The translations under genes were made by a program, and so were the position numbers. From NCBI RefSeq assembly GCF_964204865.1, contig NC_135254.1, forward strand, positions 4,283,001 through 4,347,000: a stretch of 64,000 nt of DNA, given 5' to 3'. The DNA is from Styela clava (taxonomy: Eukaryota > Chordata > Ascidiacea > Stolidobranchia > Styelidae). The stretch's first letter is position 1. Every line of letters begins with the position of its first letter. This document shows positions 1-64,000 of the stretch, one piece after another. The notes under the pieces were generated by a model. That model saw only the letters and a list, made by a program, of their open reading frames with translations, did no database searches and had not been told where the DNA came from.

Positions 1-351
1 CATTATCCAAGTTATTTCCTTTATCCAACCGTCTCTAGATTGATTCCTTATTTGCAGTTCCACATTCAGATTGTGTTGCCATTGATTGAGCAATAGAATG
101 AGCGCCAAGATTTGGAAGTATAATTGTTTGCTGTCCAAGGGTACGTATTGGGGCTGTGGCTCTTTGTTTATAGTTTATTATTTTAAACCCTGGCTCTTTG
201 CTATTTCTTGTAAAGTTGTTCAGCTACATTCTGCATCGGATGGCAAAGAACTCGCGATGTCTCACATAAAAGATTTGAACGCCATGAATCGTATTCTACG
301 TTACTGACAGACGAATCAATTAAAATTGCAACTTTTGCACATATCGTTTTT

Positions 352-377
352 ATTGTTGAGAACTTCTTCTCAACAAT
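352..377. repeat. 11-bp inverted repeat overlapping the promoter element
   Basis: ATTGTTGAGAA and TTCTCAACAAT flank a 4-base CTTC. The 11-bp arms occur only in A-type monomers with AACAATTAG (starts 1, 3710, 5925, 9634, 31007, 39084). Most other families keep about 9 bp, and C and D families only 5 because the left arm reads GTGGAGAA. The right arm, which is the PSEA-like core, is the conserved half. Confidence 0.85.
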
Positions 378-384
378 TAGTATA
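364..384 (+). promoter_or_regulatory. PSEA-like snRNA promoter element, A-type monomer
   Basis: TTCTTCTCAAC then AATTAGTATA at -60 to -40 from the U1 start at 424. From memory, insect PSEA has an AATTCCCAACT-like core followed by TTTWA and sits near -61 to -41, recruiting the SNAPc-type factor; the match is in position and in the TCAAC plus T/A tract. No TATA box lies between it and the gene, as expected for a Pol II snRNA gene. Nearly all copies keep TTCTCAAC at -57 to -50. Identification is inferred, not tested. Confidence 0.6.
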
Positions 385-423
385 GAACATTCATTCATGA
401 TGCGCAACCAATCGTCACAAATC

Positions 424-584
424 ATACTTACCTGACGAGGCAGTCAACCGCGATCACGAAGACGGTTCTGCCTAGGCGAGGTTTAGTCATTGCACCCAGA
501 CTAAATTGACCCTAGCGATTATCCCAAATGTGGATAACTCGGTCGTGTAATTTCTGCTTGTGGGGACTGCGTTGGCGCTATCCC
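424..584 (+). ncRNA. U1: U1 snRNA, copy 1 (A type)
   Basis: U1 forms the snRNP that recognises 5' splice sites in the nucleus. Seen here: 5' arm ATACTTACCTG (nt 1-11); SL1 with AACCGC/GCGGTT stem (nt 23-28/39-44) and U1-70K loop GATCACGAAG (nt 29-38); SL2 with a 7-bp stem and U1A loop ATTGCACCCA (nt 66-75); SL3 TTATCC/GGATAA (nt 96-101/109-114); Sm-like AATTTCTG (nt 126-133); SL4 (nt 140-161) with a TTCG loop. Differences from the array consensus: G39A breaks the SL1 closing pair, A136T, and C151G turns the SL4 loop into TTGG. Length 161 nt against about 164 in vertebrates. Identity is near certain; activity is unknown. Confidence 0.96.
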
Positions 585-640
585 TTTTATATATTTGCTC
601 ACGACCAATATCCTGTTGGCTTACGAGTTAGGTCAATGAG

Positions 641-670
641 CGGCCACGTTGCTTTCATTAGTTGTGGCCG
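641..670. other. Inverted repeat 3' of U1 (CGGCCAC/GTGGCCG)
   Basis: Seven-base perfect arms with a 16-base spacer, 57 bp past the gene end. It is present downstream of almost every copy; C-type monomers shorten it to six pairs (GTGGCCT), and one copy (near 61000) breaks it with GTGACCG. It could be a folded 3' transcript end or a chance GC-rich island. No classical 3' box was recognised in the 3' flank. Confidence 0.5.
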
Positions 671-1165
671 TATTGATCCTCGTTTAGGTGTGTTATTTTT
701 CTCATGACCAATCTTACAATCCATTTATTTATATTATTCCATGACATGCCTTGCCATTATCCAAGTTATCCCTTTATCCAACCGTCTCTAGATTGATTCC
801 CTTTTTGCAGTTCCACATTCAGATTGTGTTGCCATTGATTGAGCAATAGAATGAGCGCCAAGATTTGGAAGTATCATTGTTTGCTGTCCAAGGTACGTAT
901 TGGGGCTGTGGCTCTTTGTTTATAGTTTAATATTTCAAACCCTGGCTCTTTGCTATTTCTTGTAAAGTTGTTCAGCTTCATTCTGCATAGAACTCGCGAT
1001 GTATCACATAAAAGATTTGAACGCAATGAATCGTATTCTACGTTATTGACAGACGAATCAATTAAAATTGCAAATTTTGCACATATCGTTTTTATTGTTG
1101 AGAACTTCTTCTCAACATTTAGCATAGAACATTCATTCATGATGCGCAACCAATCGTCACAAATC

Positions 1166-1326
1166 ATACTTACCTGACGAGGCAGTCAACCGCGATCACG
1201 AAGACGGTTCTGCCTAGGCGAGGTTTAGTCATTGCACCCAGACTAAATTGACCCTAGCGATTATTCCAAGTGTCGATAACTCGGTCGTGTAATTTCTGCT
1301 TGTGAGGACTGCGTTCGCGCTATCCC
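1166..1326 (+). ncRNA. U1: U1 snRNA, copy 2 (B type)
   Basis: Differs from consensus at G39A, C100T, A105G, G109C, A136T and G140A. G109C puts a C opposite C101 in SL3, and G140A loses the outermost SL4 pair. The splice-site arm, both protein loops and the Sm site are intact. Confidence 0.94.
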
Positions 1327-1917
1327 TTTTATATATTTGCTCACGACCAATATCCTGTTGGCTTAAGAGTTAGGTCAATGAGCGGCCACGTTGCTTCCAT
1401 TAGTTGTGGCCGTATTGATCCTCGTTTGGGTGTGTTATATTTCTCATGACCAATCTTACCATCCATTTATTTATATTATTTCATGACATGCCTTGCCATT
1501 ATCCAAGTTATCCCTTTATCCAACCGTCTCTAGATTGATTCCTTATTTGCAGTTCCACATTCAGATTGTGTTGCCATTGATTGAGCAATAGAATGAGCGC
1601 CGAGATTTGGAAGTATCATTGTTTGCTGTCCAGGGTACGTATTGGGGCTGTGGCTCTTCGTTTATAGTTTAATATTTTGAACCCTGGCTCTTTGCTATTT
1701 CTTGTAAAGTTGTTCAGCTACATTCTGCATCGGATGGCAAAGAACTCGCGATGTCTCACATAAAAGATTTGAACGCAATGAATCGTATTCTACGTTACTG
1801 ACAGACGAATCAATTAAAATTGCAACTTTTGCACATATCGTTTCTATTGTGGAGAACTCCTTCTCAACGTTTAGCATAGAACATTCATTCATGATGCGCA
1901 ACCAATCGTCACAAACC

Positions 1918-2078
1918 ATACTTACCTGACGAGGCAGTCAACCGCGATCACGAAGGCGGTTCTGCCTAGGCGAGGTTTAGTCATTGCACCCAGACTAAAT
2001 TGACCCTAGCGATTATCCCAAATGTGAATACCTCGGTCGTGTAATTTCTGCTAGTGGGGACTGCGTTCGCGCTATCCC
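1918..2078 (+). ncRNA. U1: U1 snRNA, copy 3 (C type)
   Basis: Only G110A and A114C, both in the 3' strand of SL3, where they weaken two pairs. All protein-binding motifs match consensus. The upstream flank reads ACC before ATACTT. Confidence 0.95.
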
Positions 2079-2669
2079 TTTTATATATTTGCTCACGACC
2101 AATATCCTGTTGGCTTACGAGTTAGGTCAATGAGCGGCCACGTTGCTTTCATTAGTTGTGGCCTTATTGATCCTCGTTTGGGTGTGGTATATTTCTCATG
2201 AACAATCTTACAATCCATTCATTGATATTATTCCATGACATGCCTTGCCATTATCCAAGTTATTTCCTTTATCCAACCGTCTCTAGATTGATTCCTTATT
2301 TGCAGTTCCACATTCAGATTGTGTTGCCATTGATTGAGCAATAGAATGAGCGCCAAGATTTGGAAGTATCATTGTTTGCTGTCCAAGGTACGTATCGGGG
2401 CTGCGGCTCTTTGTTTATAGTTTAATATTTCAACCCCTGGTCCTTGCTATTTCTTGTAAAGTTGTTCAGCTTCATTCTGCATCGGATGGCAAAAAACTCA
2501 CGATGTATCACATAAAAGATTTGAACGCAATGAATCGTATTCTACGTTACTGACAGACGAATCAATTAAAATTGCAACTTTTGCACATATCGTTTTTATT
2601 GTGGAGAACTTCTTCTCAACGTTTAGCATAGAACATTCATTCATGATGCGCAACCAATCGTCACAAACC

Positions 2670-2830
2670 ATACTTACCTGACGAGGCAGTCAACCGCGAT
2701 CACGAAGGCGGTTCCGCCTAGGCGAGGTTTAGTCATTGCACCCAGACTAAATTGACCCTAGCGATTATCCCAAATGTGGATAACTCGGTCGTGTAATTTC
2801 TGCTAGTGGGGACTGCGTTCGCGCTATCCC
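2670..2830 (+). ncRNA. U1: U1 snRNA, copy 4 (D type)
   Basis: A single change, T46C, which makes an A-C mismatch in the outer SL1 stem. With the exact-consensus copies 25 and 70, D-type genes are the best candidates for fully functional U1. Confidence 0.96.
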
Positions 2831-3348
2831 TTTTATATACTTGCTCACTACCAATAATCTTGTTGTCTTTCGAGTTAGGTCAAAGAGCGGCCACGCTGCT
2901 TTCATTAGTTGTGGCCGTATTGATCCTCGTTTGGGTGTGTTATATTTCTCATGACCAATCTTACAATCCATTTATTGATATTATTCCATGACATGCTTTG
3001 CCATTATCCAAGTTATCCCTTCATCCGACCGTCCTTGCTTGCAGTTCCACATTCAGATTGTGTTGCCATTGATTGAGCAATAGAATGAGCGCCTAGTTTC
3101 GGAAATAGCGTTATTCTCTGTTTAGGGTACGTATCGGAGCTGCGGCTCTTTGTTTATAGTTTAATGTTTCAACCCCTGGTCCTTGCTATTTCTTGTAAAG
3201 TTGTTCAGCTTTATTCTGCATCGGATGGCAAAAAACTCACGATGTATCACATAAAAGATTTGAACGCAATGAATCGTATTCTATGTTACTGACAGACGAA
3301 TCAAATAAAATTGCAACTTTTGCACAAATCGTTTTTATTGTTGAGAAC

Positions 3349-3369
3349 TTCTTTTCAACGTTTAGCATA
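3349..3369 (+). promoter_or_regulatory. PSEA-like element, E-type variant
   Basis: CTTTTCAACG then TTTAGCATA at -60 to -40. All E-type copies read TTTTCAAC where other families read TTCTCAAC, a C-to-T in the core. Spacing to the gene at 3409 is the standard one. Confidence 0.5.
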
Positions 3370-3408
3370 GAACATTCATTCATGATGCGCAACCAATCGC
3401 CACAAGTC

Positions 3409-3568
3409 ATACTTACCTGACGAGGCAGTCAACCGCGATCACGAAGGCGGTTCTGCCTAGGCGAGGTTTAGTCATTGCACCCAGGCTAAATTGACCCTAG
3501 CGATTATCCCAAATGTGGATAACTCGGTCGCGTAATTTCTGCTAGTGGGACTGCGTTCGCGCTGTCCC
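3409..3568 (+). ncRNA. U1: U1 snRNA, copy 5 (E type, 160 nt)
   Basis: A77G (G-U wobble in SL2), T123C, one G lost from the G run at nt 139-142, and A157G. The last two make SL4 close as GGGAC/GTCCC, a better helix than consensus. The 3' flank lacks 29 bp starting about 15 bp after the gene, which may affect 3'-end formation. Confidence 0.95.
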
Positions 3569-4132
3569 TTTTATATATTTGCTTAGGTCAATGAGCGGCC
3601 ACGTTGCTTTCATTAGTTGTGGCCGTATTGATCCTCGTTTGGGTGTGGTATATTTCTCATGAACAATCTTACAATCCATTCATTGATATTATTCCATGAC
3701 ATGCCTTGCCATTATCCAAGTTATTTCCTTTATCCAACCGTCTCTAGATTGATTCCTTATTTGCAGTTCCACATTCAGATTGTGTTGCCATTGATTGAGC
3801 AATAGAATGAGCGCCAAGATTTGGAAGTATAATTGTTTGCTGTCCAAGGGTACGTATTGGGGCTGTGGCTCTTTGTTTATAGTTTATTATTTTAAACCCT
3901 GGCTCTTTGCTATTTCTTGTAAAGTTGTTCAGCTACATTCTGCATCGGATGGCAAAGAACTCGCGATGTCTCACATAAAAGATTTGAACGCCATGAATCG
4001 TATTCTACGTTACTGACAGACGAATCAATTAAAATTGCAACTTTTGCACATATCGTTTTTATTGTTGAGAACTTCTTCTCAACAATTAGTATAGAACATT
4101 CATTCATGATGCGCAACCAATCGTCACAAATC

Positions 4133-5783: not shown

Positions 5784-6347
5784 TTTTGTATATTTGCTTA
5801 GGTCAATGAGCGGCCACGTTGCTTTCATTAGTTGTGGCCGTATTGATCCTCGTTTGGGTGTGGTATATTTCTCATGAACAATCTTACAATCCATTCATTG
5901 ATATTATTCCATGACATGCCTTGCCATTATCCAAGTTATTTCCTTTATCCAACCGTCTCTAGATTGATTCCTTATTTGCAGTTCCACATTCAGATTGTGT
6001 TGCCATTGATTGAGCAATAGAATGAGCGCCAAGATTTGGAAGTATAATTGTTTGCTGTCCAAGGGTACGTATTGGGGCTGTGGCTCTTTGTTTATAGTTT
6101 ATTATTTTAAACCCTGGCTCTTTGCTATTTCTTGTAAAGTTGTTCAGCTACATTCTGCATCGGATGGCAAAGAACTCGCGATGTCTCACATAAAAGATTT
6201 GAACGCCATGAATCGTATTCTACGTTACTGACAGACGAATCAATTAAAATTGCAACTTTTGCACATATCGTTTTTATTGTTGAGAACTTCTTCTCAACAA
6301 TTAGTATAGAACATTCATTCATGATGCGCAACCAATCGTCACAAATC

Positions 6348-6508
6348 ATACTTACCTGACGAGGCAGTCAACCGCGATCACGAAGACGGTTCTGCCTAGG
6401 CGAGGTTTAGTCATTGCACCCAGACTAAATTGACCCTAGCGATTATCCCAAATGTGGATAACTCGGTCGTGTAATTTCTGCTTGTGGGGACTGCGTTGGC
6501 GCTATCCC
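6348..6508 (+). ncRNA. U1: U1 snRNA, copy 9 (A type)
   Basis: As copy 1, with the TTGG SL4 loop. Confidence 0.95.
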
Positions 6509-7089
6509 TTTTATATATTTGCTCACGACCAATATCCTGTTGGCTTACGAGTTAGGTCAATGAGCGGCCACGTTGCTTTCATTAGTTGTGGCCGTATTGA
6601 TCCTCGTTTAGGTGTGTTATATTTCTCATGACCAATCTTACAATCCATTTATTTATATTATTCCATGACATGCCTTGCCATTATCCAAGTTATCCCTTTA
6701 TCCAACCGTCTCTAGATTGATTCCCTTTTTGCAGTTCCACATTCAGATTGTGTTGCCATTGATTGAGCAATAGAATGAGCGCCAAGATTTGGAAGTATCA
6801 TTGTTTGCTGTCCAAGGTACGTATTGGGGCTGTGGCTCTTTGTTTATAGTTTAATATTTCAAACCCTGGCTCTTTGCTATTTCTTGTAAAGTTGTTCAGC
6901 TTCATTCTGCATAGAACTCGCGATGTATCACATAAAAGATTTGAACGCAATGAATCGTATTCTACGTTATTGACAGACGAATCAATTAAAATTGCAAATT
7001 TTGCACATATCGTTTTTATTGTTGAGAACTTCTTCTCAACATTTAGCATAGAACATTCATTCATGATGCGCAACCAATCGTCACAAATC

Positions 7090-7250
7090 ATACTTACCTG
7101 ACGAGGCAGTCAACCGCGATCACGAAGACGGTTCTGCCTAGGCGAGGTTTATTCATTGCACCCAGACTAAATTGACCCTAGCGATTATTCCAAGTGTCGA
7201 TAACTCGGTCGTGTAATTTCTGCTTGTGAGGACTGCGTTCGCGCTATCCC
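7090..7250 (+). ncRNA. U1: U1 snRNA, copy 10 (B type, SL2 mutation)
   Basis: B-type changes as copy 2 plus private G63T, which puts T opposite C78 in the middle of the SL2 stem that presents the U1A loop. Confidence 0.94.
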
Positions 7251-7841
7251 TTTTATATATTTGCTCACGACCAATATCCTGTTGGCTTAAGAGTTAGGTC
7301 AATGAGCGGCCACGTTGCTTCCATTAGTTGTGGCCGTATTGATCCTCGTTTGGGTGTGTTATATTTCTCATGACCAATCTTACCATCCATTTATTTATAT
7401 TATTTCATGACATGCCTTGCCATTATCCAAGTTATCCCTTTATCCAACCGTCTCTAGATTGATTCCTTATTTGCAGTTCCACATTCAGATTGTGTTGCCA
7501 TTGATTGAGCAATAGAATGAGCGCCGAGATTTGGAAGTATCATTGTTTGCTGTCCAGGGTACGTATTGGGGCTGTGGCTCTTCGTTTATAGTTTAATATT
7601 TTGAACCCTGGCTCTTTGCTATTTCTTGTAAAGTTGTTCAGCTACATTCTGCATCGGATGGCAAAGAACTCGCGATGTCTCACATAAAAGATTTGAACGC
7701 AATGAATCGTATTCTACGTTACTGACAGACGAATCAATTAAAATTGCAACTTTTGCACATATCGTTTCTATTGTGGAGAACTCCTTCTCAACGTTTAGCA
7801 TAGAACATTCATTCATGATGCGCAACCAATCGTCACAAACC

Positions 7842-8002
7842 ATACTTACCTGACGAGGCAGTCAACCGCGATCACGAAGGCGGTTCTGCCTAGGCGAGGT
7901 TTAGTCATTGCACCCAGACTAAATTGACCCTAGCGATTATCCCAAATGTGAATACCTCGGTCGTGTAATTTCTGCTAGTGGGGACTGCGTTCGCGCTATC
8001 CC
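7842..8002 (+). ncRNA. U1: U1 snRNA, copy 11 (C type)
   Basis: G110A and A114C, as copy 3. Confidence 0.95.
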
Positions 8003-8593
8003 TTTTATATATTTGCTCACGACCAATATCCTGTTGGCTTACGAGTTAGGTCAATGAGCGGCCACGTTGCTTTCATTAGTTGTGGCCTTATTGATCCTCG
8101 TTTGGGTGTGGTATATTTCTCATGAACAATCTTACAATCCATTCATTGATATTATTCCATGACATGCCTTGCCATTATCCAAGTTATTTCCTTTATCCAA
8201 CCGTCTCTAGATTGATTCCTTATTTGCAGTTCCACATTCAGATTGTGTTGCCATTGATTGAGCAATAGAATGAGCGCCAAGATTTGGAAGTATCATTGTT
8301 TGCTGTCCAAGGTACGTATCGGGGCTGCGGCTCTTTGTTTATAGTTTAATATTTCAACCCCTGGTCCTTGCTATTTCTTGTAAAGTTGTTCAGCTTCATT
8401 CTGCATCGGATGGCAAAAAACTCACGATGTATCACATAAAAGATTTGAACGCAATGAATCGTATTCTACGTTACTGACAGACGAATCAATTAAAATTGCA
8501 ACTTTTGCACATATCGTTTTTATTGTGGAGAACTTCTTCTCAACGTTTAGCATAGAACATTCATTCATGATGCGCAACCAATCGTCACAAACC

Positions 8594-8754
8594 ATACTTA
8601 CCTGACGAGGCAGTCAACCGCGATCACGAAGGCGGTTCCGCCTAGGCGAGGTTTAGTCATTGCACCCAGACTAAATTGACCCTAGCGATTATCCCAAATG
8701 TGGATAACTCGGTCGTGTAATTTCTGCTAGTGGGGACTGCGTTCGCGCTATCCC
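8594..8754 (+). ncRNA. U1: U1 snRNA, copy 12 (D type)
   Basis: T46C only. Confidence 0.95.
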
Positions 8755-9332
8755 TTTTATATACTTGCTCACTACCAATAATCTTGTTGTCTTTCGAGTT
8801 AGGTCAAAGAGCGGCCACGCTGCTTTCATTAGTTGTGGCCGTATTGATCCTCGTTTGGGTGTGTTATATTTCTCATGACCAATCTTACAATCCATTTATT
8901 GATATTATTCCATGACATGCTTTGCCATTATCCAAGTTATCCCTTCATCCGACCGTCCTTGCTTGCAGTTCCACATTCAGATTGTGTTGCCATTGATTGA
9001 GCAATAGAATGAGCGCCTAGTTTCGGAAATAGCGTTATTCTCTGTTTAGGGTACGTATCGGAGCTGCGGCTCTTTGTTTATAGTTTAATGTTTCAACCCC
9101 TGGTCCTTGCTATTTCTTGTAAAGTTGTTCAGCTTTATTCTGCATCGGATGGCAAAAAACTCACGATGTATCACATAAAAGATTTGAACGCAATGAATCG
9201 TATTCTATGTTACTGACAGACGAATCAAATAAAATTGCAACTTTTGCACAAATCGTTTTTATTGTTGAGAACTTCTTTTCAACGTTTAGCATAGAACATT
9301 CATTCATGATGCGCAACCAATCGCCACAAGTC

Positions 9333-9492
9333 ATACTTACCTGACGAGGCAGTCAACCGCGATCACGAAGGCGGTTCTGCCTAGGCGAGGTTTAGTCATT
9401 GCACCCAGGCTAAATTGACCCTAGCGATTATCCCAAATGTGGATAACTCGGTCGCGTAATTTCTGCTAGTGGGACTGCGTTCGCGCTGTCCC
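9333..9492 (+). ncRNA. U1: U1 snRNA, copy 13 (E type)
   Basis: As copy 5, with the linked 3'-flank deletion. Confidence 0.94.
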
Positions 9493-10056
9493 TTTTATAT
9501 ATTTGCTTAGGTCAATGAGCGGCCACGTTGCTTTCATTAGTTGTGGCCGTATTGATCCTCGTTTGGGTGTGGTATATTTCTCATGAACAATCTTACAATC
9601 CATTCATTGATATTATTCCATGACATGCCTTGCCATTATCCAAGTTATTTCCTTTATCCAACCGTCTCTAGATTGATTCCTTATTTGCAGTTCCACATTC
9701 AGATTGTGTTGCCATTGATTGAGCAATAGAATGAGCGCCAAGATTTGGAAGTATAATTGTTTGCTGTCCAAGGGTACGTATTGGGGCTGTGGCTCTTTGT
9801 TTATAGTTTATTATTTTAAACCCTGGCTCTTTGCTATTTCTTGTAAAGTTGTTCAGCTACATTCTGCATCGGATGGCAAAGAACTCGCGATGTCTCACAT
9901 AAAAGATTTGAACGCCATGAATCGTATTCTACGTTACTGACAGACGAATCAATTAAAATTGCAACTTTTGCACATATCGTTTTTATTGTTGAGAACTTCT
10001 TCTCAACAATTAGTATAGAACATTCATTCATGATGCGCAACCAATCGTCACAAATC

Positions 10057-10217: not shown

Positions 10218-10798
10218 TTTTATATATTTGCTCACGACCAATATCCTGTTGGCTTACGAGTTAGGTCAATGAGCGGCCACGTTGCTTTCATTAGTTGTGG
10301 CCGTATTGATCCTCGTTTGGGTGTGTTATATTTCTCATGACCAATCTTACAATCCATTTATTTATATTATTCCATGACATGCCTTGCCATTATCCAAGTT
10401 ATCCCTTTATCCAACCGTCTCTAGATTGATTCCCTTTTTGCAGTTCCACATTCAGATTGTGTTGCCATTGATTGAGCAATAGAATGAGCGCCAAGATTTG
10501 GAAGTATCATTGTTTGCTGTCCAAGGTACGTATTGGGGCTGTGGCTCTTTGTTTATAGTTTAATATTTCAAACCCTGGCTCTTTGCTATTTCTTGTAAAG
10601 TTGTTCAGCTTCATTCTGCATAGAACTCGCGATGTATCACATAAAAGATTTGAACGCAATGAATCGTATTCTACGTTATTGACAGACGAATCAATTAAAA
10701 TTGCAAATTTTGCACATATCGTTTTTATTGTTGAGAACTTCTTCTCAACATTTAGCATAGAACATTCATTCATGATGCGCAACCAATCGTCACAAATC

Positions 10799-10959
10799 AT
10801 ACTTACCTGACGAGGCAGTCAACCGCGATCACGAAGACGGTTCTGCCTAGGCGAGGTTTAGTCATTGCACCCAGACTAAATTGACCCTAGCGATTATTCC
10901 AAGTGTCGATAACTCGGTCGTGTAATTTCTGCTTGTGAGGACTGCGTTCGCGCTATCCC
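10799..10959 (+). ncRNA. U1: U1 snRNA, copy 15 (B type)
   Basis: As copy 2. Confidence 0.94.
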
Positions 10960-11551
10960 TTTTATATATTTGCTCACGACCAATATCCTGTTGGCTTAAG
11001 AGTTAGGTCAATGAGCGGCCACGTTGCTTCCATTAGTTGTGGCCGTATTGATCCTCGTTTGGGTGTGTTATATTTCTCATGACCAATCTTACCATCCATT
11101 TATTTATATTATTTCATGACATGCCTTGCCATTATCCAAGTTATCCCTTTATCCAACCGTCTCTAGATTGATTCCTTATTTGCAGTTCCACATTCAGATT
11201 GTGTTGCCATTGATTGAGCAATAGAATGAGCGCCGAGATTTGGAAGTATCATTGTTTGCTGTCCAAGGTACGTATTGGGGCTGTGGCTCTTTGTTTATAG
11301 TTTAATATTTCAAACCCTGGCTCTTTGCTATTTCTTGTAAAGTTGTTCAGTTTCATTCTGCCATCGGATGGCAAAGAACTCGCGATGTATCACATAAAAG
11401 ATTTGAACGCAATGAATCGTATTCTACGTTACTGACAGACGAATCAATTAAAATCGCAACTTTTGCACATATCGTTTTTATTGTTGAGAACTTCTTCTCA
11501 ACATTTAGCATAGAACATTCATTCATGATGCGCAACCAATCGTCACAAATC

Positions 11552-11712
11552 ATACTTACCTGACGGGGCAGTCAACCGTGATCACGTAGGCGGTTCTGCC
11601 TAGGCGAGGTTTAGTCATTGCACCCAGACTAAATTGACCCTAGCGATTATCCCAAATGTAGATCACTCGGTCGTGTAATTTCTGCTAGTGGGGACTGCGT
11701 TCGCGCTATCCC
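11552..11712 (+). ncRNA. U1: U1 snRNA, copy 16 (F type, altered U1-70K loop)
   Basis: A15G, C28T (T-G wobble closing SL1), A36T, G109A, and private A113C. A36T changes the conserved loop GATCACGAAG to GATCACGTAG, where U1-70K binds. The two SL3 changes remove pairs on the 3' strand. Confidence 0.93.
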
Positions 11713-12303
11713 TTTTATATATTTGCTTACGACCAATATCCTGTTAGCTTACGAGTTAGGTAAATGAGCGGCCACGTTGCTTTCATTAGTTGTGGCCGTA
11801 TTGATCCTCGTTTGGGTGTGGTATATTTCTCATGACCAATCTTACAATCCATTCATCGATATTATTCCATGACATGCCTTGCCATTATCCAAGTTATTTC
11901 CTTTATCCAACCGTCTCTAGATTGATTCCTTATTTGCAGTTCCACATTCAGATTGTGTTGCCATTGATCGAGCAATAGAATGAGCGCCAAGATTTGGAAG
12001 TATCATTGTTTGCTGTCCAAGGTACGTATCGGGGCTGCGGCTCTTTGTTTATAGTTTAATATTTCAACCCCTGGTCCTTGCTATTTCTTGTAAAGTTGTT
12101 CAGCTTCATTCTGCATCGGATGGCAAAAAACTCACGATGTATCACATAAAAGATTTGAACGCAATGAATCGTATTCTACGTTACTGACAGACGAATCAAT
12201 TAAAATTGCAACTTTTGCACATATCGTTTCTATTGTGGAGAACTCCTTCTCAACGTTTAGCATAGAACATTCATTCATGATGCGCAACCAATCGTCACAA
12301 ACC

Positions 12304-13055: not shown

Positions 13056-13216
13056 ATACTTACCTGACGAGGCAGTCAACCGCGATCACGAAGGCGGTTC
13101 CGCCTAGGCGAGGTTTAGTCATTGCACCCAGACTAAATTGACCCTAGCGATTATCCCAAATGTGGATAACTCGGTCGTGTAATTTCTGCTAGTGGGGACT
13201 GCGTTCGCGCTATCCC
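13056..13216 (+). ncRNA. U1: U1 snRNA, copy 18 (D type)
   Basis: T46C only. Confidence 0.95.
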
Positions 13217-52060: not shown

Positions 52061-52220
52061 ATACTTACCTGACGAGGCAGTCAACCGCGATCACGAAGGC
52101 GGTTCTGCCTAGGCGAGGTTTAGTCATTGCACCCAGGCTAAATTGACCCTAGCGATTATCCCAAATGTGGATAACTCGGTCGCGTAATTTCTGCTAGTGG
52201 GACTGCGTTCGCGCTGTCCC
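52061..52220 (+). ncRNA. U1: U1 snRNA, copy 71 (E type)
   Basis: As copy 26. Confidence 0.94.
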
Positions 52221-52640
52221 TTTTATATATTTGCTTAGGTCAATGAGCGGCCACGTTGCTTTCATTAGTTGTGGCCGTATTGATCCTCGTTTGGGTGTGG
52301 TATATTTCTCATGAACAATCTTACAATCCATTCATTGATATTATTCCATGACATGCCTTGCCATTATCCAAGTTATTTCCTTTATCCAACCGTCTCTAGA
52401 TTGATTCCTTATTTGCAGTTCCACATTCAGATTGTGTTGCCATTGATTGAGCAATAGAATGAGCGCCAAGATTTGGAAGTATAATTGTTTGCTGTCCAAG
52501 GGTACGTATTGGGGCTGTGGCTCTCTGTTTATAGTTTATTATTTTAAACCCTGGCTCTTTGCTATTTCTTGTAAAGTTGTTCAGCTACATTCTGCATCGG
52601 ATGGCAAAGAACTCGCGATGTCTCACATAAAAGATTTGAA

Positions 52641-52666
52641 AGACGCGCAACCAACATTTAGTATAG
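52641..52666 (+). promoter_or_regulatory. Damaged PSEA-like element, 33-kb copy
   Basis: Same filler and loss as at 19558, displaced by 33,083 bp, so the event predates the super-unit duplication. It serves the U1 copy at 52705. Confidence 0.75.
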
Positions 52667-52704
52667 AACATTCATTCATGATGCGCAACCAATCGTCACA
52701 AATC

Positions 52705-52865
52705 ATACTTACCTGACGAGGCAGTCAACCGCGATCACGAAGACGGTTCTGCCTAGGCGAGGTTTAGTCATTGCACCCAGACTAAATTGACCCTAGCGAT
52801 TATCCCAAATGTGGATAACTCGGTCGTGTAATTTCTGCTTGTGGGGACTGCGTTCGCGCTATCCC
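52705..52865 (+). ncRNA. U1: U1 snRNA, copy 72 (A type, broken promoter)
   Basis: As copy 27, with the same filler-bearing deletion upstream. Confidence 0.93.
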
Positions 52866-53384
52866 TTTTATATATTTGCTCACGACCAATATCCTGTTGG
52901 CTTACGAGTTAGGTCAATGAGCGGCCACGTTGCTTTCATTAGTTGTGGCCGTATTGATCCTCGTTTGGGTGTGTTATATTTCTCATGACCAATCTTACAA
53001 TCCATTTATTTATATTATTCCATGACATGCCTTGCCATTCAGATTGTGTTATATTGATTGAGCAATAGAATGAGCGCCAAGATTTGGAAGTATCATTGTT
53101 TGCTGTCCAAGGTACGTATTGGGGCTGTGGCTCTTTGTTTATAGTTTAATATTTCAAACCCTGGCTCTTTGCTATTTCTTGTAAAGTTGTTCAGCTTCAT
53201 TCTGCATAGAACTCGCGATGTATCACATAAAAGATTTGAACGCAATGAATCGTATTCTACGTTACTGACAGACGAATCAATTAAAATTGCAAATTTTGCA
53301 CATATCGTTTTTATTGTTGAGAACTTCTTCTCAACATTTAGCATAGAACATTCATTCATGATGCGCAACCAATCGTCACAAATC

Positions 53385-53544
53385 ATACTTACCTGACGAG
53401 GCAGTCAACCGCGATCACGAAGACGGTTCTGCCTAGGCGAGGTTTAGTCATTGCACCCAGACTAAATTGACCCTAGCGATTATCCCAAATGTAGATAACT
53501 CGGTCGCGTAATTTCTGCTAGTGGGACTGCGTTCGCGCTGTCCC
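53385..53544 (+). ncRNA. U1: U1 snRNA, copy 73 (B/E chimera)
   Basis: As copy 28. Confidence 0.93.
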
Positions 53545-54106
53545 TTTTATATATTTGCTTAGGTCAATGAGCGGCCACGTTGCTTTCATTAGTTGTGGCC
53601 GTATTGATCCTCGTTTGGGTGTGTTATATTTCTCATGACCAATCTTACAATCCATTTATTTATATTATTCCATGACATGCCTTGCCATTATCCAAGTTAT
53701 CCATTTATCCAACCGTCTCTACATTGATTCCTTATTTGCAGTTCCACTTTCAGATTGTGTTGCCATTGATTGAGCAATAGAATGAGCGCCAAGATTCGGA
53801 AATATCATTATTCTCTGTTTAAGGTACGTATCTGAGCTGCGGCTCTTTGTTTATAGTTTGATATTTCAACCCTTGGTCCTTGCAATTTCTTGTAAAGTTG
53901 TTCAGTTTTATTCTGCCATCGGATGGCAAAGAACTCGCGATGTATCACATAAAAGATTTAAACGCAATGAATCGTATTCTACGTTACTGACAGACGAATC
54001 AATTAAAATCGCAACTTTTGCACATATCGTTTTTATTGTTGAGAACTTCTTCTCAACATTTAGCATAGAACATTCATTCAGGATGCGCAACCAATCGTCC
54101 CAAATC

Positions 54107-54267
54107 ATACCTACCTGACGAGGCCGTCAACCGCGATCAAGAAGGCTGTTCTGCCTAGGCGAGGTTTAGTCATTGCACCCAGAATAAATTGACCCTAGCG
54201 ATTATTCCAAATGTCGATAACTCGGTCGTGTAATTTCTGCTTGTGAGGACTGCGTTCGCGCTATCCT
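54107..54267 (+). ncRNA. U1: Variant U1 snRNA, copy 74 (T5C, C161T)
   Basis: As copy 29 plus C161T, which pairs with A140 and so restores the outer SL4 pair lost through G140A. C161T is absent from copy 29 and shared with copy 78. Confidence 0.9.
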
Positions 54268-54858
54268 TTTTATATATTTGCTCACGACCAATATCCTGTT
54301 GGCTTAAGAGTTAGGTCAATGAGCGGCCACGTTGCTTCCATTAGTTGTGGCCGTATTGATCCTCGTTTGGGTGTGTTATATTTCTCATGACCAATCTTAC
54401 CATCCATTTATTTATATTATTTCATGACATGCCTTGCCATTATCCAAGTTATCCCTTTATCCAACCGTCTCTAGATTGATTCCTTATTTGCAGTTCAACA
54501 TTCAGATTGTGTTGCCATTGATTGAGCAATAGAATGAGCGCCGAGATTTGGAAGTATCATTGTTTGCTGTCCAGGGTACGTATTGGGGCTGTGGCTCTTC
54601 GTTTATAGTTTAATATTTTGAACCCTGGCTCTTTGCTATTTCTTGTAAAGTTGTTCAGCTACATTCTGCATCGGATGGCAAAGAACTCGCGATGTCTCAC
54701 ATAAAAGATTTGAACGCAATGAATCGTATTCTACGTTACTGACAGACGAATCAATTAAAATTGCAACTTTTGCACATATCGTTTTTATTGTTGAGAACTT
54801 CTTCTCAACATTTAGTATAGAACATTCATTCATGATGCGCAACCAATCGTCACAAATC

Positions 54859-55018
54859 ATACTTACCTGACGAGGCAGTCAACCGCGATCACGAAGACGG
54901 TTCTGCCTAGGCGAGGTTTAGTCATTGCACCCAGACTAAATTGACCCTAGTGATTATCCCAAATGTGGATAACTCGGTCGCGTAATTTCTGCTAGTGGGA
55001 CTGCGTTCGCGCTGTCCC
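54859..55018 (+). ncRNA. U1: U1 snRNA, copy 75 (A/E chimera)
   Basis: As copy 22. Confidence 0.93.
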
Positions 55019-55581
55019 TTTTATATATTTGCTTAGGTCAATGAGCGGCCACGTTGCTTTCATTAGTTGTGGCCGTATTGATCCTCGTTTGGGTGTGTTA
55101 TATTTCTCATGACCAATCTTACAATCCATTTATTTATATTATTCCATGACATGCCTTGCCATTATCCAAGTTATTCATTTATCCAACCGTCTCTAGATTG
55201 ATTCCTTATTTGCAGTTCCACATTCAGATTGTGTTGCCATTGATTGAGCAATAGAATGAGCGCCAAGATTCGGAAATATCATTATTCTCTGTTTAAGGTA
55301 CGTATCGGAGCTGCGGCTCTTTGTTTATAGTTTGATATTTCAACCCCTGGTCCTTGCAATTTCTTGTAAAGTTGTTCAGTTTCATTCTGCCATCGGATGG
55401 CAAAGAACTCGCGATGTATCACATAAAAGATTTGAACGCAATGAATCGTATTCTACGTTACTGACAGGCGAATCAATTAAAATCGCAACTTTTGCACATA
55501 TCGTTTTTATTGTTGAGAAATTCTTCTCAACATTTAGCATAGAACATTTATTCAGGAATTCGCAACCAATCGTCCCAAATC

Positions 55582-55742
55582 ATACCTACCTGACGAGGCC
55601 GTCAACCGCGATCACGAAGGCTGTTCTGACTAGGCGAGGTTTAGTCATTGCACCCAGACTAAATTGACCCTAGCGATTATCCCAAATGTGGATAACTCGG
55701 TCGTGTAATTTTTGCTTGTGGGGACTGCGTTCGCGCTATCCC
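55582..55742 (+). ncRNA. U1: Variant U1 snRNA, copy 76 (T5C, AATTTTTG)
   Basis: As copy 31. Confidence 0.9.
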
Positions 55743-56332
55743 TTTTATATATTTGCTCACGACCAATATCCTGTTGGCTTACGAGTTAGGTCAATGAGCG
55801 GCCACGTTGCTTTCATTAGTTGTGGCCGTATTGATCCTCGTTTGGGTGTGTTATATTTCTCATGACCAATCTTACAATCCATTTATTTATATTATTCCAT
55901 GACATGCCTTGCCATTATCCAAGTTATCCCTTTATCCAACCGTCTCTAGATTGATTCCTTATTTGCAGTTCCACATTCAGATTGTGTTGCTATTGATTGA
56001 GCAATAGAATGAGCGCCAAGATTTGGAAGTATCATTGTTTGCTGTCCAAGGTACGTATTGGGGCTGTGGCTCTTTGTTTATAGTTTAATATTTCAAACCC
56101 TGGCTCTTTCTATTTCTTGTAAAGTTGTTCAGCTTCATTCTGCATCGGATGGCAAAGAACTCGCGATGTATCACATAAAAGATTTGAACGCAATGAATCG
56201 TATTCTACGTTACTGACAGACGAATCAATTAAAATTGCAAATTTTGCACATATCGTTTTTATTGTTGAGAACTTCTTCTCAACATTTAGCATAGAACATT
56301 CATTCATGATGCGCAACCAATCGTCACAAATC

Positions 56333-56492
56333 ATACTTACCTGACGAGGCAGTCAACCGCGATCACGAGGACGGTTCTGCCTAGGCGAGGTTTAGTCATT
56401 GCACCCAGACTAAATTGACCCTAGCGATTATCCCAAATGTGGATAACTCGGTCGCGTAATTTCTGCTAGTGGGACTGCGTTCGCGCTGTCCC
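56333..56492 (+). ncRNA. U1: U1 snRNA, copy 77 (A37G loop)
   Basis: As copy 34. It occupies the position of copy 32 in the other super-unit but has a normal nt 1, so A1T in copy 32 is private. Confidence 0.92.
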
Positions 56493-57054
56493 TTTTATAT
56501 ATTTGCTTAGGTCAATGAGCGGCCACGTTGCTTTCATTAGTTGTGGCCGTATTGATCCTCGTTTGGGTGTGTTATATTTCTCATGACCAATCTTACAATC
56601 CATTTATTTATATTATTCCATGACATGCCTTGCCATTATCCAAGTTATTCATTTATCCAACCGTCTCTAGGTTGATTCCTTATTTGCAGTTCCACATTCA
56701 GATTGTGTTGCCATTGATTGAGCAATAGAATGAGCGCCAAGATTCGGAAATATCATTATTCTCTGTTTAAGGTACGTATCGGAGCTGCGGCTCTTTGTTT
56801 ATAGTTTGATATTTCAACCCCTGGTCCTTGCAATTTCTTGTAAAGTTGTTCAGTTTCATTCTGCCATCGGATGGCAAAGAACTCGCGATGTATCACATAA
56901 AAGATTTGAACGCAATGAATCGTATTCTACGTTACTGACAGACGAATCAATTAAAATCGCAACTTTTGCACATATCGTTTTTATTGTTGAGAAATTCTTC
57001 TCAACATTTAGCATAGAACATTCATTCAGGATGCGCAACCAATCGTCCCAAATC

Positions 57055-57215
57055 ATACCTACCTGACGAGGCCGTCAACCGCGATCAAGAAGGCTGTTCT
57101 GCCTAGGCGAGGTTTAGTCATTGCACCCAGAATAAATTGACCCTAGCGATTATTCCAAATGTCGATAACTCGGTCGTGTAATTTCTGCTTGTGAGGACTG
57201 CGTTCGCGCTATCCT
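57055..57215 (+). ncRNA. U1: Variant U1 snRNA, copy 78 (T5C, C161T)
   Basis: Gene as copy 74. The upstream flank is recombinant: TGAGAAATTC as in the copy 31 type, then CAGGATGCGC as in the copy 29 type. Confidence 0.9.
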
Positions 57216-57806
57216 TTTTATATATTTGCTCACGACCAATATCCTGTTGGCTTAAGAGTTAGGTCAATGAGCGGCCACGTTGCTTCCATTAGTTGTGGCC
57301 GTATTGATCCTCGTTTGGGTGTGTTATATTTCTCATGACCAATCTTACCATCCATTTATTTATATTATTTCATGACATGCCTTGCCATTATCCAAGTTAT
57401 CCCTTTATCCAACCGTCTCTAGATTGATTCCTTATTTGCAGTTCAACATTCAGATTGTGTTGCCATTGATTGAGCAATAGAATGAGCGCCGAGATTTGGA
57501 AGTATCATTGTTTGCTGTCCAGGGTACGTATTGGGGCTGTGGCTCTTCGTTTATAGTTTAATATTTTGAACCCTGGCTCTTTGCTATTTCTTGTAAAGTT
57601 GTTCAGCTACATTCTGCATCGGATGGCAAAGAACTCGCGATGTCTCACATAAAAGATTTGAACGCAATGAATCGTATTCTACGTTACTGACAGACGAATC
57701 AATTAAAATTGCAACTTTTGCACATATCGTTTTTATTGTTGAGAACTTCTTCTCAACATTTAGTATAGAACATTCATTCATGATGCGCAACCAATCGTCA
57801 CAAATC

Positions 57807-57966
57807 ATACTTACCTGACGAGGCAGTCAACCGCGATCACGAAGACGGTTCTGCCTAGGCGAGGTTTAGTCATTGCACCCAGACTAAATTGACCCTAGTG
57901 ATTATCCCAAATGTGGATAACTCGGTCGCGTAATTTCTGCTAGTGGGACTGCGTTCGCGCTGTCCC
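57807..57966 (+). ncRNA. U1: U1 snRNA, copy 79 (A/E chimera)
   Basis: As copy 22. Confidence 0.93.
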
Positions 57967-58529
57967 TTTTATATATTTGCTTAGGTCAATGAGCGGCCAC
58001 GTTGCTTTCATTAGTTGTGGCCGTATTGATCCTCGTTTGGGTGTGTTATATTTCTCATGACCAATCTTACAATCCATTTATTTATATTATTCCATGACAT
58101 GCCTTGCCATTATCCAAGTTATTCATTTATCCAACCGTCTCTAGATTGATTCCTTATTTGCAGTTCCACATTCAGATTGTGTTGCCATTGATTGAGCAAT
58201 AGAATGAGCGCCAAGATTCGGAAATATCATTATTCTCTGTTTAAGGTACGTATCGGAGCTGCGGCTCTTTGTTTATAGTTTGATATTTCAACCCCTGGTC
58301 CTTGCAATTTCTTGTAAAGTTGTTCAGTTTCATTCTGCCATCGGATGGCAAAGAACTCGCGATGTATCACATAAAAGATTTGAACGCAATGAATCGTATT
58401 CTACGTTACTGACAGGCGAATCAATTAAAATCGCAACTTTTGCACATATCGTTTTTATTGTTGAGAAATTCTTCTCAACATTTAGCATAGAACATTTATT
58501 CAGGAATTCGCAACCAATCGTCCCAAATC

Positions 58530-58690
58530 ATACCTACCTGACGAGGCCGTCAACCGCGATCACGAAGGCTGTTCTGACTAGGCGAGGTTTAGTCATTGCA
58601 CCCAGACTAAATTGACCCTAGCGATTATCCCAAATGTGGATAACTCGGTCGTGTAATTTTTGCTTGTGGGGACTGCGTTCGCGCTATCCC
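58530..58690 (+). ncRNA. U1: Variant U1 snRNA, copy 80 (T5C, AATTTTTG)
   Basis: As copy 31. Confidence 0.9.
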
Positions 58691-59280
58691 TTTTATATAT
58701 TTGCTCACGACCAATATCCTGTTGGCTTACGAGTTAGGTCAATGAGCGGCCACGTTGCTTTCATTAGTTGTGGCCGTATTGATCCTCGTTTGGGTGTGTT
58801 ATATTTCTCATGACCAATCTTACAATCCATTTATTTATATTATTCCATGACATGCCTTGCCATTATCCAAGTTATCCCTTTATCCAACCGTCTCTAGATT
58901 GATTCCTTATTTGCAGTTCCACATTCAGATTGTGTTGCTATTGATTGAGCAATAGAATGAGCGCCAAGATTTGGAAGTATCATTGTTTGCTGTCCAAGGT
59001 ACGTATTGGGGCTGTGGCTCTTTGTTTATAGTTTAATATTTCAAACCCTGGCTCTTTCTATTTCTTGTAAAGTTGTTCAGCTTCATTCTGCATCGGATGG
59101 CAAAGAACTCGCGATGTATCACATAAAAGATTTGAACGCAATGAATCGTATTCTACGTTACTGACAGACGAATCAATTAAAATTGCAAATTTTGCACATA
59201 TCGTTTTTATTGTTGAGAACTTCTTCTCAACATTTAGCATAGAACATTCATTCATGATGCGCAACCAATCGTCACAAATC

Positions 59281-59440
59281 ATACTTACCTGACGAGGCAG
59301 TCAACCGCGATCACGAGGACGGTTCTGCCTAGGCGAGGTTTAGTCATTGCACCCAGACTAAATTGACCCTAGCGATTATCCCAAATGTGGATAACTCGGT
59401 CGCGTAATTTCTGCTAGTGGGACTGCGTTCGCGCTGTCCC
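59281..59440 (+). ncRNA. U1: U1 snRNA, copy 81 (A37G loop)
   Basis: As copy 34. Confidence 0.92.
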
Positions 59441-60003
59441 TTTTATATATTTGCTTAGGTCAATGAGCGGCCACGTTGCTTTCATTAGTTGTGGCCGTAT
59501 TGATCCTCGTTTGGGTGTGTTATATTTCTCATGACCAATCTTACAATCCATTTATTTATATTATTCCATGACATGCCTTGCCATTATCCAAGTTATTCAT
59601 TTATCCAACCGTCTCTAGGTTGATTCCTTATTTGCAGTTCCACATTCAGATTGTGTTGCCATTGATTGAGCAATAGAATGAGCGCCAAGATTCGGAAATA
59701 TCATTATTCTCTGTTTAAGGTACGTATCGGAGCTGCGGCTCTTTGTTTATAGTTTGATATTTCAACCCCTGGTCCTTGCAATTTCTTGTAAAGTTGTTCA
59801 GTTTCATTCTGCCATCGGATGGCAAAGAACTCGCGATGTATCACATAAAAGATTTGAACGCAATGAATCGTATTCTACGTTACTGACAGACGAATCAATT
59901 AAAATCGCAACTTTTGCACATATCGTTTTTATTGTTGAGAAATTCTTCTCAACATTTAGCATAGAACATTTATTCAGGAATTCGCAACCAATCGTCCCAA
60001 ATC

Positions 60004-60164
60004 ATACCTACCTGACGAGGCCGTCAACCGCGATCACGAAGGCTGTTCTGACTAGGCGAGGTTTAGTCATTGCACCCAGACTAAATTGACCCTAGCGATT
60101 ATCCCAAATGTGGATAACTCGGTCGTGTAATTTCTGCTTGTGGTGACTGCGTTCGCGCTATCCC
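60004..60164 (+). ncRNA. U1: Variant U1 snRNA, copy 82 (T5C, G141T)
   Basis: As copy 33 plus private G141T, which breaks a G-C pair of SL4. Confidence 0.9.
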
Positions 60165-60754
60165 TTTTATATATTTGCTCACGACCAATATCCTGTTGGC
60201 TTACGAGTTAGGTCAATGAGCGGCCACGTTGCTTTCATTAGTTGTGGCCGTATTGATCCTCGTTTGGGTGTGTTATATTTCTCATGACCAATCTTACAAT
60301 CCATTTATTTATATTATTCCATGACATGCCTTGCCATTATCCAAGTTATCCCTTTATCCAACCGTCTCTAGATTGATTCCTTATTTGCAGTTCCACATTC
60401 AGATTGTGTTGCTATTGATTGAGCAATAGAATGAGCGCCAAGATTTGGAAGTATCATTGTTTGCTGTCCAAGGTACGTATTGGGGCTGTGGCTCTTTGTT
60501 TATAGTTTAATATTTCAAACCCTGGCTCTTTCTATTTCTTGTAAAGTTGTTCAGCTTCATTCTGCATCGGATGGCAAAGAACTCGCGATGTATCACATAA
60601 AAGATTTGAACGCAATGAATCGTATTCTACGTTACTGACAGACGAATCAATTAAAATTGCAAATTTTGCACATATCGTTTTTATTGTTGAGAACTTCTTC
60701 TCAACATTTAGCATAGAACATTCATTCATGATGCGCAACCAATCGTCACAAATC

Positions 60755-60915
60755 ATACTTACCTGACGAGGCAGTCAACCGCGATCACGAGGACGGTTCT
60801 GCCTAGGCGAGGTTTAGTCATTGCACCCAGACTAAATTGACCCTAGCGATTATCCCAAATGTAGATAACTCGGTCGTATAATTTCTGCTAGTGGGGACTG
60901 CGTTCGCGCTATCCC
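60755..60915 (+). ncRNA. U1: U1 snRNA, copy 83 (A37G loop, normal 3' half)
   Basis: As copy 36. The downstream inverted repeat is broken here (GTTGTGACCG). Confidence 0.92.
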
Positions 60916-61507
60916 TTTTATATATTTGCTTACGACCAATATCCTGTTGGCTTACGAGTTAGGTCAATGAGCGGCCACGTTGCTTTCATTAGTTGTGACC
61001 GTATTGATCCTCGTTTGGGTGTGGTATATTTCTCATGACCAATCTTACAATCCATTCATTGATATTATTCCATGACATGCCTTGCCATTATCCAAGTTAT
61101 TTCCTTTATCCAACCGTCTCTAGATTGATTCCTTATTTGCAGTTCCACATTCAGATTGTGTTGCCATTGATTGAGCAATAGAATGAGCGCCAAGATTTGG
61201 AAGTGTCATTGTTTGCTGTCCAAGGTACATATCGGAGCTGCGGCTCTTTGTTTATAGTTTGATATTTCAACCCCTGGTCCTTGCAATTTCTTGTAAAGTT
61301 GTTCAGTTTCATTCTGCCATCGGAAGGCAAAGAACTCGCGATGTATCACATAAAAGATTTGAACGCAATGAATCGTATTCTATGTTACTGACAGACGAAT
61401 CAATTAAAATTGCAACTTTTGCACATATCGTTTTTATTGTTGAGAACTTCTTCTCAACGTTTAGCATAGAACATTCATTCATGATGCGCAACCAATCGTC
61501 ACAAACC

Positions 61508-61668
61508 ACACTTACCTGACGAGGCAGTCAACCGAGATCACGAAGGCGGTTCTGCCTAGGCGAGGTTTAGTCATTGCACCCAGGCTAAATTGACCCTAGC
61601 GATTATCCCAAATGTGGATAACTCGGTCGTGTAATTTCTGCTAGTGGGGACTACGTTCGCGCTATCCC
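61508..61668 (+). ncRNA. U1: Variant U1 snRNA, copy 84 (T2C)
   Basis: As copy 37. Confidence 0.9.
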
Positions 61669-62262
61669 TTTTATATATTTGCTCACTACCAATAATCTTG
61701 TTGGTTTTCGAGTTAGGTCAATGAGCGGCCACGCTGCTTTCATTAGTTGTGGCCGTATTGATCCTCGTTTGGGTGTGGTATATTTCTCATGAACAATCTT
61801 ACAATCCATTCATTGATATTATTCCATGACATGCCTTGCCATTATCCAAGTTATTTCCTTTATCCAACCGTCTCTAGATTGATTCCTTATTTGCAGTTCC
61901 ACATTCAGATTGTGTTGCCATTGATTGAGCAATAGAATGAGCGCCAAGATTTGGAAGTATAATTGTTTGCTGTCCAAGGGTACGTATTGGGGCTGTGGCT
62001 CTTTGTTTATAGTTTATTATTTTAAACCCTGGCTCTTTGCTATTTCTTGTAAAGTTGTTCAGCTTCATTCTGCATCGGATGGCAAAGAACTTGCGATGTA
62101 TCACATAAAAGATTTGAACGCAATGAATCGTATTCTACGTTACTGACAGACGGATCAATTAAAATCGCAACTTTTGCAAATATCGTTTTTATTGTTGAGA
62201 ACTTCTTCTCAACATTTAGCATAGAACATTCATTCATGATGCGCAACCAATCGTCACAAATC

Positions 62263-62423
62263 ATACTTACCTGACGAGGCAGTCAACCGTGATCACGTAA
62301 GCGGTTCTGCCTAGGCGAGGTCCAGTCATTGCACCCAGACTAAATTGACACTAGCGATTATCCCAAATGTGGATAACTCGGTCGTGTAATTTCTGCTAGT
62401 GGGGACTGCGTTCGCGCTATCCC
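62263..62423 (+). ncRNA. U1: U1 snRNA, copy 85 (H type, damaged SL2)
   Basis: As copy 38. Confidence 0.9.
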
Positions 62424-63017
62424 TTTTATATATTTGTTCACTACCAATAATCTTGTTGTCTTACGAGTTAGGTCAATGAGCGGCCACGTTGCTTTCATTA
62501 GTTGTGGCCGTATTGATCCTCGTTTGGGTGTGGTATATTTCTCATGAACAATCTTACAATCCATTCATTGATATTATTCCATGACATGCCTTGCCATTAT
62601 CCAAGTTATTTCCTTTATCCAACCGTCTCTAGATTGATTCCTTATTTGCAGTTCCACATTCAGATTGTGTTGCCATTGATTGAGCAATAGAATGAGCGCC
62701 AAGATTTGGAAGTATAATTGTTTGCTGTCCAAGGGTACGTATTGGGGCTGTGGCTCTTTGTTTATAGTTTATTATTTTAAACCCTGGCTCTTTGCTATTT
62801 CTTGTAAAGTTGTTCAGCTTCATTCTGCATCGGATGGCAAAGAACTTGCGATGTATCACATAAAAGATTTGAACGCAATGAATCGTATTCTACGTTACTG
62901 ACAGACGAATCAATTAAAATCGCAACTTTTGCAAATATCGTTTTTATTGTTGAGAACTTCTTCTCAACATTTAGCATAGAACATTCATTCATGATGCGCA
63001 ACCAATCGTCACAAATC

Positions 63018-63178
63018 ATACTTACCTGACGAGGCAGTCAACCGTGATCACGTAAGCGGTTCTGCCTAGGCGAGGTTTAGTCATTGCACCCAGACTAAAT
63101 TGACACTAGCGATTATCCCAAATGTGGATAACTCGGTCGTGTAATTTCTGCTAGTGGGGACTGCGTTCGCGCTATCCC
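63018..63178 (+). ncRNA. U1: U1 snRNA, copy 86 (H type)
   Basis: As copy 39. Confidence 0.92.
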
Positions 63179-63771
63179 TTTTATATATTTGCTCACTACC
63201 AATAATCTTGTTGGTTTTCGAGTTAGGTCAATGAGCGGCCACGCTGCTTTCATTAGTTGTGGCCGTATTGATTCTCGTTTGGGTGTGTTATATTTCTCAT
63301 GACCAATCTTACAATCCATTTATTGATATTATTCCATGACATGCTTTGCCATTATCCAAGTTATCACTTTATCCGACCGTCTCTAGATTGATTCCTTATT
63401 TGCAGTTCCACATTCAGATTGTGTTGCCATTGATTGAGCAATAGAATGAGCGCCAAGATTTGGAAGTATAATTGTTTGCTGTCCAAGGGTACGTATTGGG
63501 GCTGTGGCTCTTTGTTTATAGTTTATTATTTTAAACCCTGGCTCTTTGCTATTTCTTGTAAAGTTGTTCAGCTTCATTCTGCATCGGATGGCAAAGAACT
63601 CGCGATGTATCACATAAAAGATTTGAACGCAATGAATCGTATTCTACGTTACTGACAGACGAATCAATTGAAATCGCAACTTTTGCACATATCGTTTTAA
63701 TTGTTGAGAACTTCTTCTCAACATTCAGCATAGAACATTCATTCATGATGCGCAACCAATCGTCACAAATC

Positions 63772-63932
63772 ATACTTACCTGACGAGGCAGTCAACCGTG
63801 ATCACGTAAGCGGTTCTGCCTAGGCGAGGTTTAGTTATTGCACCCAGACTAAATTGACACTAGCGATTATCCCAAATGTGGATAACTCGGTCGTGTAATT
63901 TCTGCTAGTGGGGACTGCGTTCGCGCTATCCC
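63772..63932 (+). ncRNA. U1: U1 snRNA, copy 87 (H type)
   Basis: C28T, A36T, G38A, C88A and private C65T, a T-G wobble at the top of SL2. The gene is complete, though its monomer is cut by the window end. Confidence 0.92.
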
Positions 63933-64000
63933 TTTTATATATTTGCTCACTACCAATAATCTTGTTGGCTTTCGAGTTAGGTCAATGAGCGGCCACGCTG

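Follow-up and report, generated by a model that had tools for sequence, protein, structure and literature searches.

A tandem array of variant U1 small nuclear RNA genes with nested higher-order organization in the ascidian Styela clava

Results

We analyzed a 64-kb stretch of the Styela clava genome (NC_135254.1, hereafter C5, positions 4283001-4347000, from the 376.6-Mb assembly GCF_964204865.1 in 379 contigs), which we refer to as the window and which a preliminary description had presented as 87 U1 small nuclear RNA (snRNA) genes lying head to tail. An Rfam scan bore this out. All 87 matches at the gathering score are to U1 (RF00003), all are on the + strand, and each spans model positions 1-166, the full length, at 115.8-145.4 bits (cut-off 69.5), so that the window from 1 to 64000 is part of a single-orientation U1 array. 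The genes comprise 31 distinct 164-base sequences, and the top-scoring one (145.4 bits, + strand, 18239-18401) is equaled by the gene at 51322-51484. In the same scan no RNA family besides U1 exceeded its own cut-off; ARAGORN found 0 transfer RNAs in the window, and the six open reading frames of at least 110 aa are each 111 aa long with a TTG start. Tandem Repeats Finder reported no arrays in the window, its longest period (500 bp) being below the monomer length.

Cutting 400 bp before each U1 gene yielded 86 complete monomers of 644-755 bp; the monomer of the final U1 gene is incomplete, and this gene does not enter the family counts. Single-link clustering at no more than 8 differences sorted these monomers into 18 families, A to R, the top-scoring gene at 18239-18401 belonging to family G. 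U1 positions 5, 28, 36, 39, 123 and 157 distinguish families. Monomers of the same family differ at a mean of 3.8 positions (259 pairs, maximum 16), compared to a mean of 39 for monomers of different families (3,396 pairs, minimum 14). As the preliminary description had it, the families remain distinct while monomers at equivalent positions of different units are nearly identical.

These families recur in fixed multi-monomer orders. Read from the left, the window begins ABCDE ADE ABCDE AB FG DEABHIG DEAJKHLMLMLNOPQR and continues DEABHIGEAFG DEABHIGEAFG DEABHIG DEAJKHLMKHLMLNOPQ. Only 27 distinct neighbor pairs occur in this order, whereas 2,000 shuffles gave 70 on average and never fewer than 61. 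The 8.1-kb repeat that had been described corresponds to the 11-mer DEABHIGEAFG, present on the + strand as two complete copies (29567-37643, 8,077 bp; 37644-45738, 8,095 bp) and, as DEABHIG, the first 7 monomers of a third (45739-50921); identity by BLAST in the 8,081-bp comparison is 98.9%. The mean difference between monomers is 16.0 at a lag of 45 and 28.7 at a lag of 11, with the remaining lags from 1 to 59 ranging from 28.6 (lag 34) to 41.2. The divergence within and between families, the repeated 11-mer and the lag-45 value together identify a higher-order repeat, and the nested order reported for this U1 array is confirmed. Smaller units on the same strand are ABCDE (24-3732, 3,709 bp, with a second copy at 5948-9656) and an HLMLML block with a two-monomer period of 1,474 bp (21376-25797).

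The largest repeat besides the 8.1-kb one is a 15.6-kb match at an offset of 33,083 bp, between 10731-26375 and 43814-59457 (both + strand, 99.64% identical), and a second match of the 33-kb class joins 19953-29439 to 54499-63997 at 98.85%. The 15.6-kb copies differ at 56 columns, distributed in patches with 26 of them within one kilobase, and share an exact run of up to 3,694 bp. The 33-kb repeat of the preliminary description is thus present, but as two copies and not as a repeating period: the window is too short for two full periods of 33 kb, and an iterated period is not proven.

We then considered the scale at which sequence has been exchanged. None of the 85 adjacent pairs of monomers belongs to one family, and neighbors are as different from each other (mean 39.8 differences) as non-neighbors of different families (39.0). 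This disfavors recent single-gene duplication and implies that recent copying moved multi-gene blocks. Smaller exchanges are also recorded. The 18 family consensuses have 70 informative biallelic sites; by the four-gamete criterion, 6% of pairs of these sites are incompatible when 1-25 bp apart and 57% when separated by more than 350 bp. In a test like the pairwise homoplasy index (PHI), 0 of 1,000 permutations gave incompatibility between near sites as low as observed, which indicates that the families are recombinant below one gene unit. Families E, H, J and M, for example, are alike at U1 positions 123 and 157 and carry the same 30-bp downstream deletion, yet differ upstream. Exchange has therefore acted at both the sub-gene and the multi-gene scale. 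The earlier proposal that homogenization works on multi-gene units rather than on single genes holds for block-wise copying; its exclusion of smaller-scale exchange is not supported, the families being mosaic.

The array itself extends from C5:4178073 to C5:4350534 (172 kb), with truncated monomers at both ends, each of which passes into other DNA. Monomers at the left edge match window families at 92-97.5%, except for one 229-bp fragment at 88.6%, and the match is 94-99% for monomers to the right of the window. From its length, we estimate that the array holds roughly 230 genes.

At least six U1 arrays lie within 2.3 Mb of C5. They occur in both orientations, and samples taken between them are free of arrays. 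The other five are at approximately 2.38-2.55, 3.29-3.31, 3.47-3.53, 3.71-3.73 and 4.64-4.66 Mb, extents that rest on sample points and matches, with parts read inside each. The 5,897 candidates of a first-look U1 search had suggested a multi-megabase centromeric U1 satellite; we rejected this idea because samples across C5 resolve into these separate arrays.

Periods were determined from two contiguous 20-kb and two 10-kb stretches, leaving out intervals above 900 bp, and each of the arrays covered proved to have its own. At 3.51 Mb the period is 4,365 bp (6 genes, 99.9% matching), and at 3.71 Mb it is 12,012 bp (15 U1 matches, 100% over the 8-kb overlap sampled). The array at 2.4-2.5 Mb combines a 6,653-bp period (9 genes) with a 1,514-bp dimer; the longer period is weak in a direct offset scan (0.399) but can be read from the distances between U1 starts and from matches of equal score. 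Among 162 monomers, 157 have their nearest neighbor in their own array, a count that includes one array represented by a single monomer, for which a self-match is impossible. We also observed that the 12,012-bp repeat (C5:3710001-3730000) includes intervals of 1,868 bp and 419 bp between U1 matches and so carries something besides the plain monomer.

Outside the arrays, we found six dispersed U1 genes (on C2, four times on C10, and on C18) among the 42 of the 5,897 first-look candidates that were scored; further dispersed copies may exist. They score 143.3-148.2 bits, and array U1 genes reach 147.3 bits. Compared to the dispersed genes, array U1 differs largely on both sides of the stem in stem-loop II, in an alignment read by eye. 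A 24-bp element found just upstream of every one of the six dispersed genes has no other occurrence in the genome at up to one mismatch, and its reversed control has 0.

All four key U1 motifs, which we take to be the 5′-splice-site end, the GAUCA of loop I, the AUUGCAC of loop II and the Sm site, match the majority form in 134 of the 160 copies that were sampled; for the window's own array the count is 82 of 92. The exact sequence AUACUUACCUG is present in 75 of the 87 window genes. Between arrays, U1 is better conserved than the spacer. Arrays 1 and 5 differ by 4.2% in U1 and by 9.2% and 9.4% in two parts of the spacer; the gap is small for arrays 3 and 5 (4.0% versus 5.2% and 3.7%). Averaged over columns, diversity across four arrays amounts to 0.035 for U1 and 0.094 for the spacer (p = 9e-11; two 419-bp monomers were left out of this comparison), and changes are depleted in the 29 motif positions (9 versus 16.9 expected, P = 0.007).

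Some window genes have variant 5′ ends. AUACCUACCUG begins nine of the 87 genes, all of families K and L (within 21024-25609 and 54107-60167), with starts at 21024, 22499, 23973, 25447, 54107, 55582, 57055, 58530 and 60004; the first of these is a family K gene on the + strand at 21024-21186. The AUACCUACCUG end would presumably pair best with 5′ splice sites that have G at position +4. A second variant, ACACUUACCUG, is carried by a family O gene (+ strand, 26951-27113) and again at 61508.

The other spliceosomal snRNAs are clustered as well. For U2, U4, U5 and U6 the searches scored the best candidates alone, and the clusters are known from match positions. For U2, 39 of 46 scored matches form a + strand cluster (C6:17529476-17788488) whose steps from 17.529 to 17.567 Mb are largely multiples of 1,169 bp; four dispersed genes on C10 and C3 score 171-179 bits, compared to 141-154 in the cluster, a pattern of dispersed versus clustered scores like that of U1. 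U4 has 30 of 42 scored matches in a + strand cluster (C4:20092264-20161924); another ten (C10:7360266-7434107), of mixed orientation, are situated between the dispersed U1 genes. U5 has 42 of 46 in a - strand cluster (C13:6266491-6467598), where partly recurrent start distances (2,418 bp twice) hint at repeated blocks, and U6 has 47 of 48 in a - strand cluster (C1:19464571-19601185). The top-scoring copies of U4 and U6 are inside their clusters. All five spliceosomal snRNAs, U1 included, thus have same-strand clusters in one assembly.

In genome-wide scans for telomere-type repeats, the TTAGGG pattern gave 3,124 forward and 5,355 reverse matches, the first listed at C1:37, and a 30-base (TTAGG)6 pattern gave 0. 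These counts speak against most insects, and an arthropod origin, to which the U1 sequence had seemed to point, was discarded as unlikely. Pattern scans of other genome contigs and of viral contigs found nothing.

Discussion

We consider it probable that the locus is a large tandem array of variant U1 genes that adds to U1 dosage and has been shaped by block-wise unequal exchange. Under this interpretation the array would be transcribed, and its copies would probably supplement the dispersed canonical U1 genes. The nested order probably arose by repeated unequal crossing-over, or by equivalent tandem segmental duplication, of blocks ranging from 2 to over 20 genes; sub-gene exchange, before or alongside block exchange, made the families mosaic.

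Several observations weigh against a functional array. Among the window's 18 families, U1 is no less variable than its surroundings (34 of 162 variable columns versus 62 of 356 in the spacer, p = 0.33), evolution of U1 at half the spacer rate is rejected (P = 1e-6), and the 36 U1 changes hit motifs and pairs no differently from chance. When all arrays are taken together, changes that break pairs are about as frequent as expected (42 versus 40.8). Even allowing one mismatch, the arrays lack the 24-bp element of the six dispersed genes; TTAGCATA is found at -47 or -48 in 66 of the 87 window genes, for instance on the + strand at 18192-18199, -47 of the U1 gene at 18239, where it is a candidate degenerate snRNA promoter element, but the rest of the 24-bp element is not kept. 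All of this would be expected of a U1-derived satellite, mostly silent, whose genes drift as pseudogenes while the dispersed genes supply the U1 that is needed, and the main rival to our interpretation is such a silent array that inherited older functional U1. We nonetheless think it unlikely, though clearly the strongest of the alternatives, given that U1 is conserved relative to the spacer between arrays, that motifs are depleted of changes and intact in most sampled copies, that the best array genes score within the range of the dispersed ones, and that U2, U4, U5 and U6 are clustered too. Conservation of U1 between arrays, with none detected among the window's families, may reflect weak selection on every single copy of a large redundant set that remains functional as a whole.

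Other explanations concern the arrangement itself. The order was judged from the assembly alone, without reads, and exact runs as long as the 3,694 bp of the 33-kb duplication, or a 12,012-bp repeat identical over the sampled overlap, are where misjoining or spurious duplication of long near-identical repeats might be suspected. That the order is partly such an artifact nevertheless seems very improbable: the copies of the 33-kb duplication differ in patches, the window contains no N, orders and periods differ between arrays, and both ends of the array pass into other DNA. We give even less credence to a centromeric or structural array in which U1 is a hitch-hiker and the higher-order repeats play a chromosomal role like that of alpha satellite. 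The higher-order organization and array-specific units are indeed reminiscent of alpha satellite; six separate arrays in both orientations within 2.3 Mb, with array-free samples between, the conservation of the motifs, and the clustering of other snRNAs on other chromosomes all speak against such a role.

Nine window genes carry AUACCUACCUG, and it is conceivable, though we regard it as a long shot, that copying in blocks preserves a set of U1 isoforms in constant proportions. If the AUACCUACCUG genes are expressed, higher-order units would co-amplify splice-site specificities, and array structure would set the U1 isoform mix.

Tandem arrays of RNA genes are commonly seen as pools homogenized gene by gene. 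Here, a single assembled array displays exchange both below and above the size of a gene, with array-specific periods in three other arrays. With U1, U2, U4, U5 and U6 clustered in one genome, why the whole spliceosomal RNA set has been amplified becomes a testable question.

Comparison with known systems

Xenopus and sea urchin have their embryonic U1 genes in tandem, and the Xenopus unit comprises two genes (a dimer). The Styela array, too, consists of tandem head-to-tail variant U1 genes in a genome that also has dispersed U1 genes, and it is perhaps best compared with these frog and urchin arrays; the Xenopus dimer could be regarded as a minimal multi-gene unit. Here, in contrast, orders reach at least 11 genes, 18 families occur in 64 kb, and periods are array-specific. 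The primate RNU2 array likewise represents concerted evolution of tandem snRNA genes, but is a homogeneous single-unit array that is not known to contain higher-order units.

The 5S genes, which are transcribed by RNA polymerase III, provide a second parallel. In pikes, the available part of one study describes 5S ribosomal DNA in higher-order blocks, some inverted, with mixed spacer variants, from reads of 10-30 kb, and genes less variable than their spacers (0.0145 versus 0.0508; PMC5437419). The likeness lies in amplified small-RNA genes arranged in blocks with genes less variable than spacers; the difference is that blocks and mixed variants, not fixed multi-monomer orders, are described in that part of the text (PMC5437419). 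The suggestion that nested structure is new to U1 clusters is accordingly upheld in part. We found no description of nested higher-order repeats in a U1 array in open-licence PubMed Central full text, and one source, as far as it was available, discusses higher-order repeats in connection with satellites, U1 figuring there as a tandem multigene family and a reference sequence (PMC7754599). Given the pike blocks, higher-order arrays of small-RNA genes are not new as an idea (PMC5437419); so far as the literature was searched, what is new is the extent and nesting of this structure in a U1 array.

The organization most resembles that of a satellite in its distinct families, fixed units, and units far more alike than neighboring monomers. 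Alpha satellite likewise consists of monomer families in fixed, array-specific multi-monomer units, built from 171-bp monomers that are 20-40% apart. The U1 monomers are genic, about 740 bp long (644-755 bp, well outside the length of approximately 171 bp) and only ~5% apart, and their units are irregular and nested. The array thus offers a gene-based parallel to the higher-order repeats of satellites, and here selection on a known RNA is open to measurement as well.

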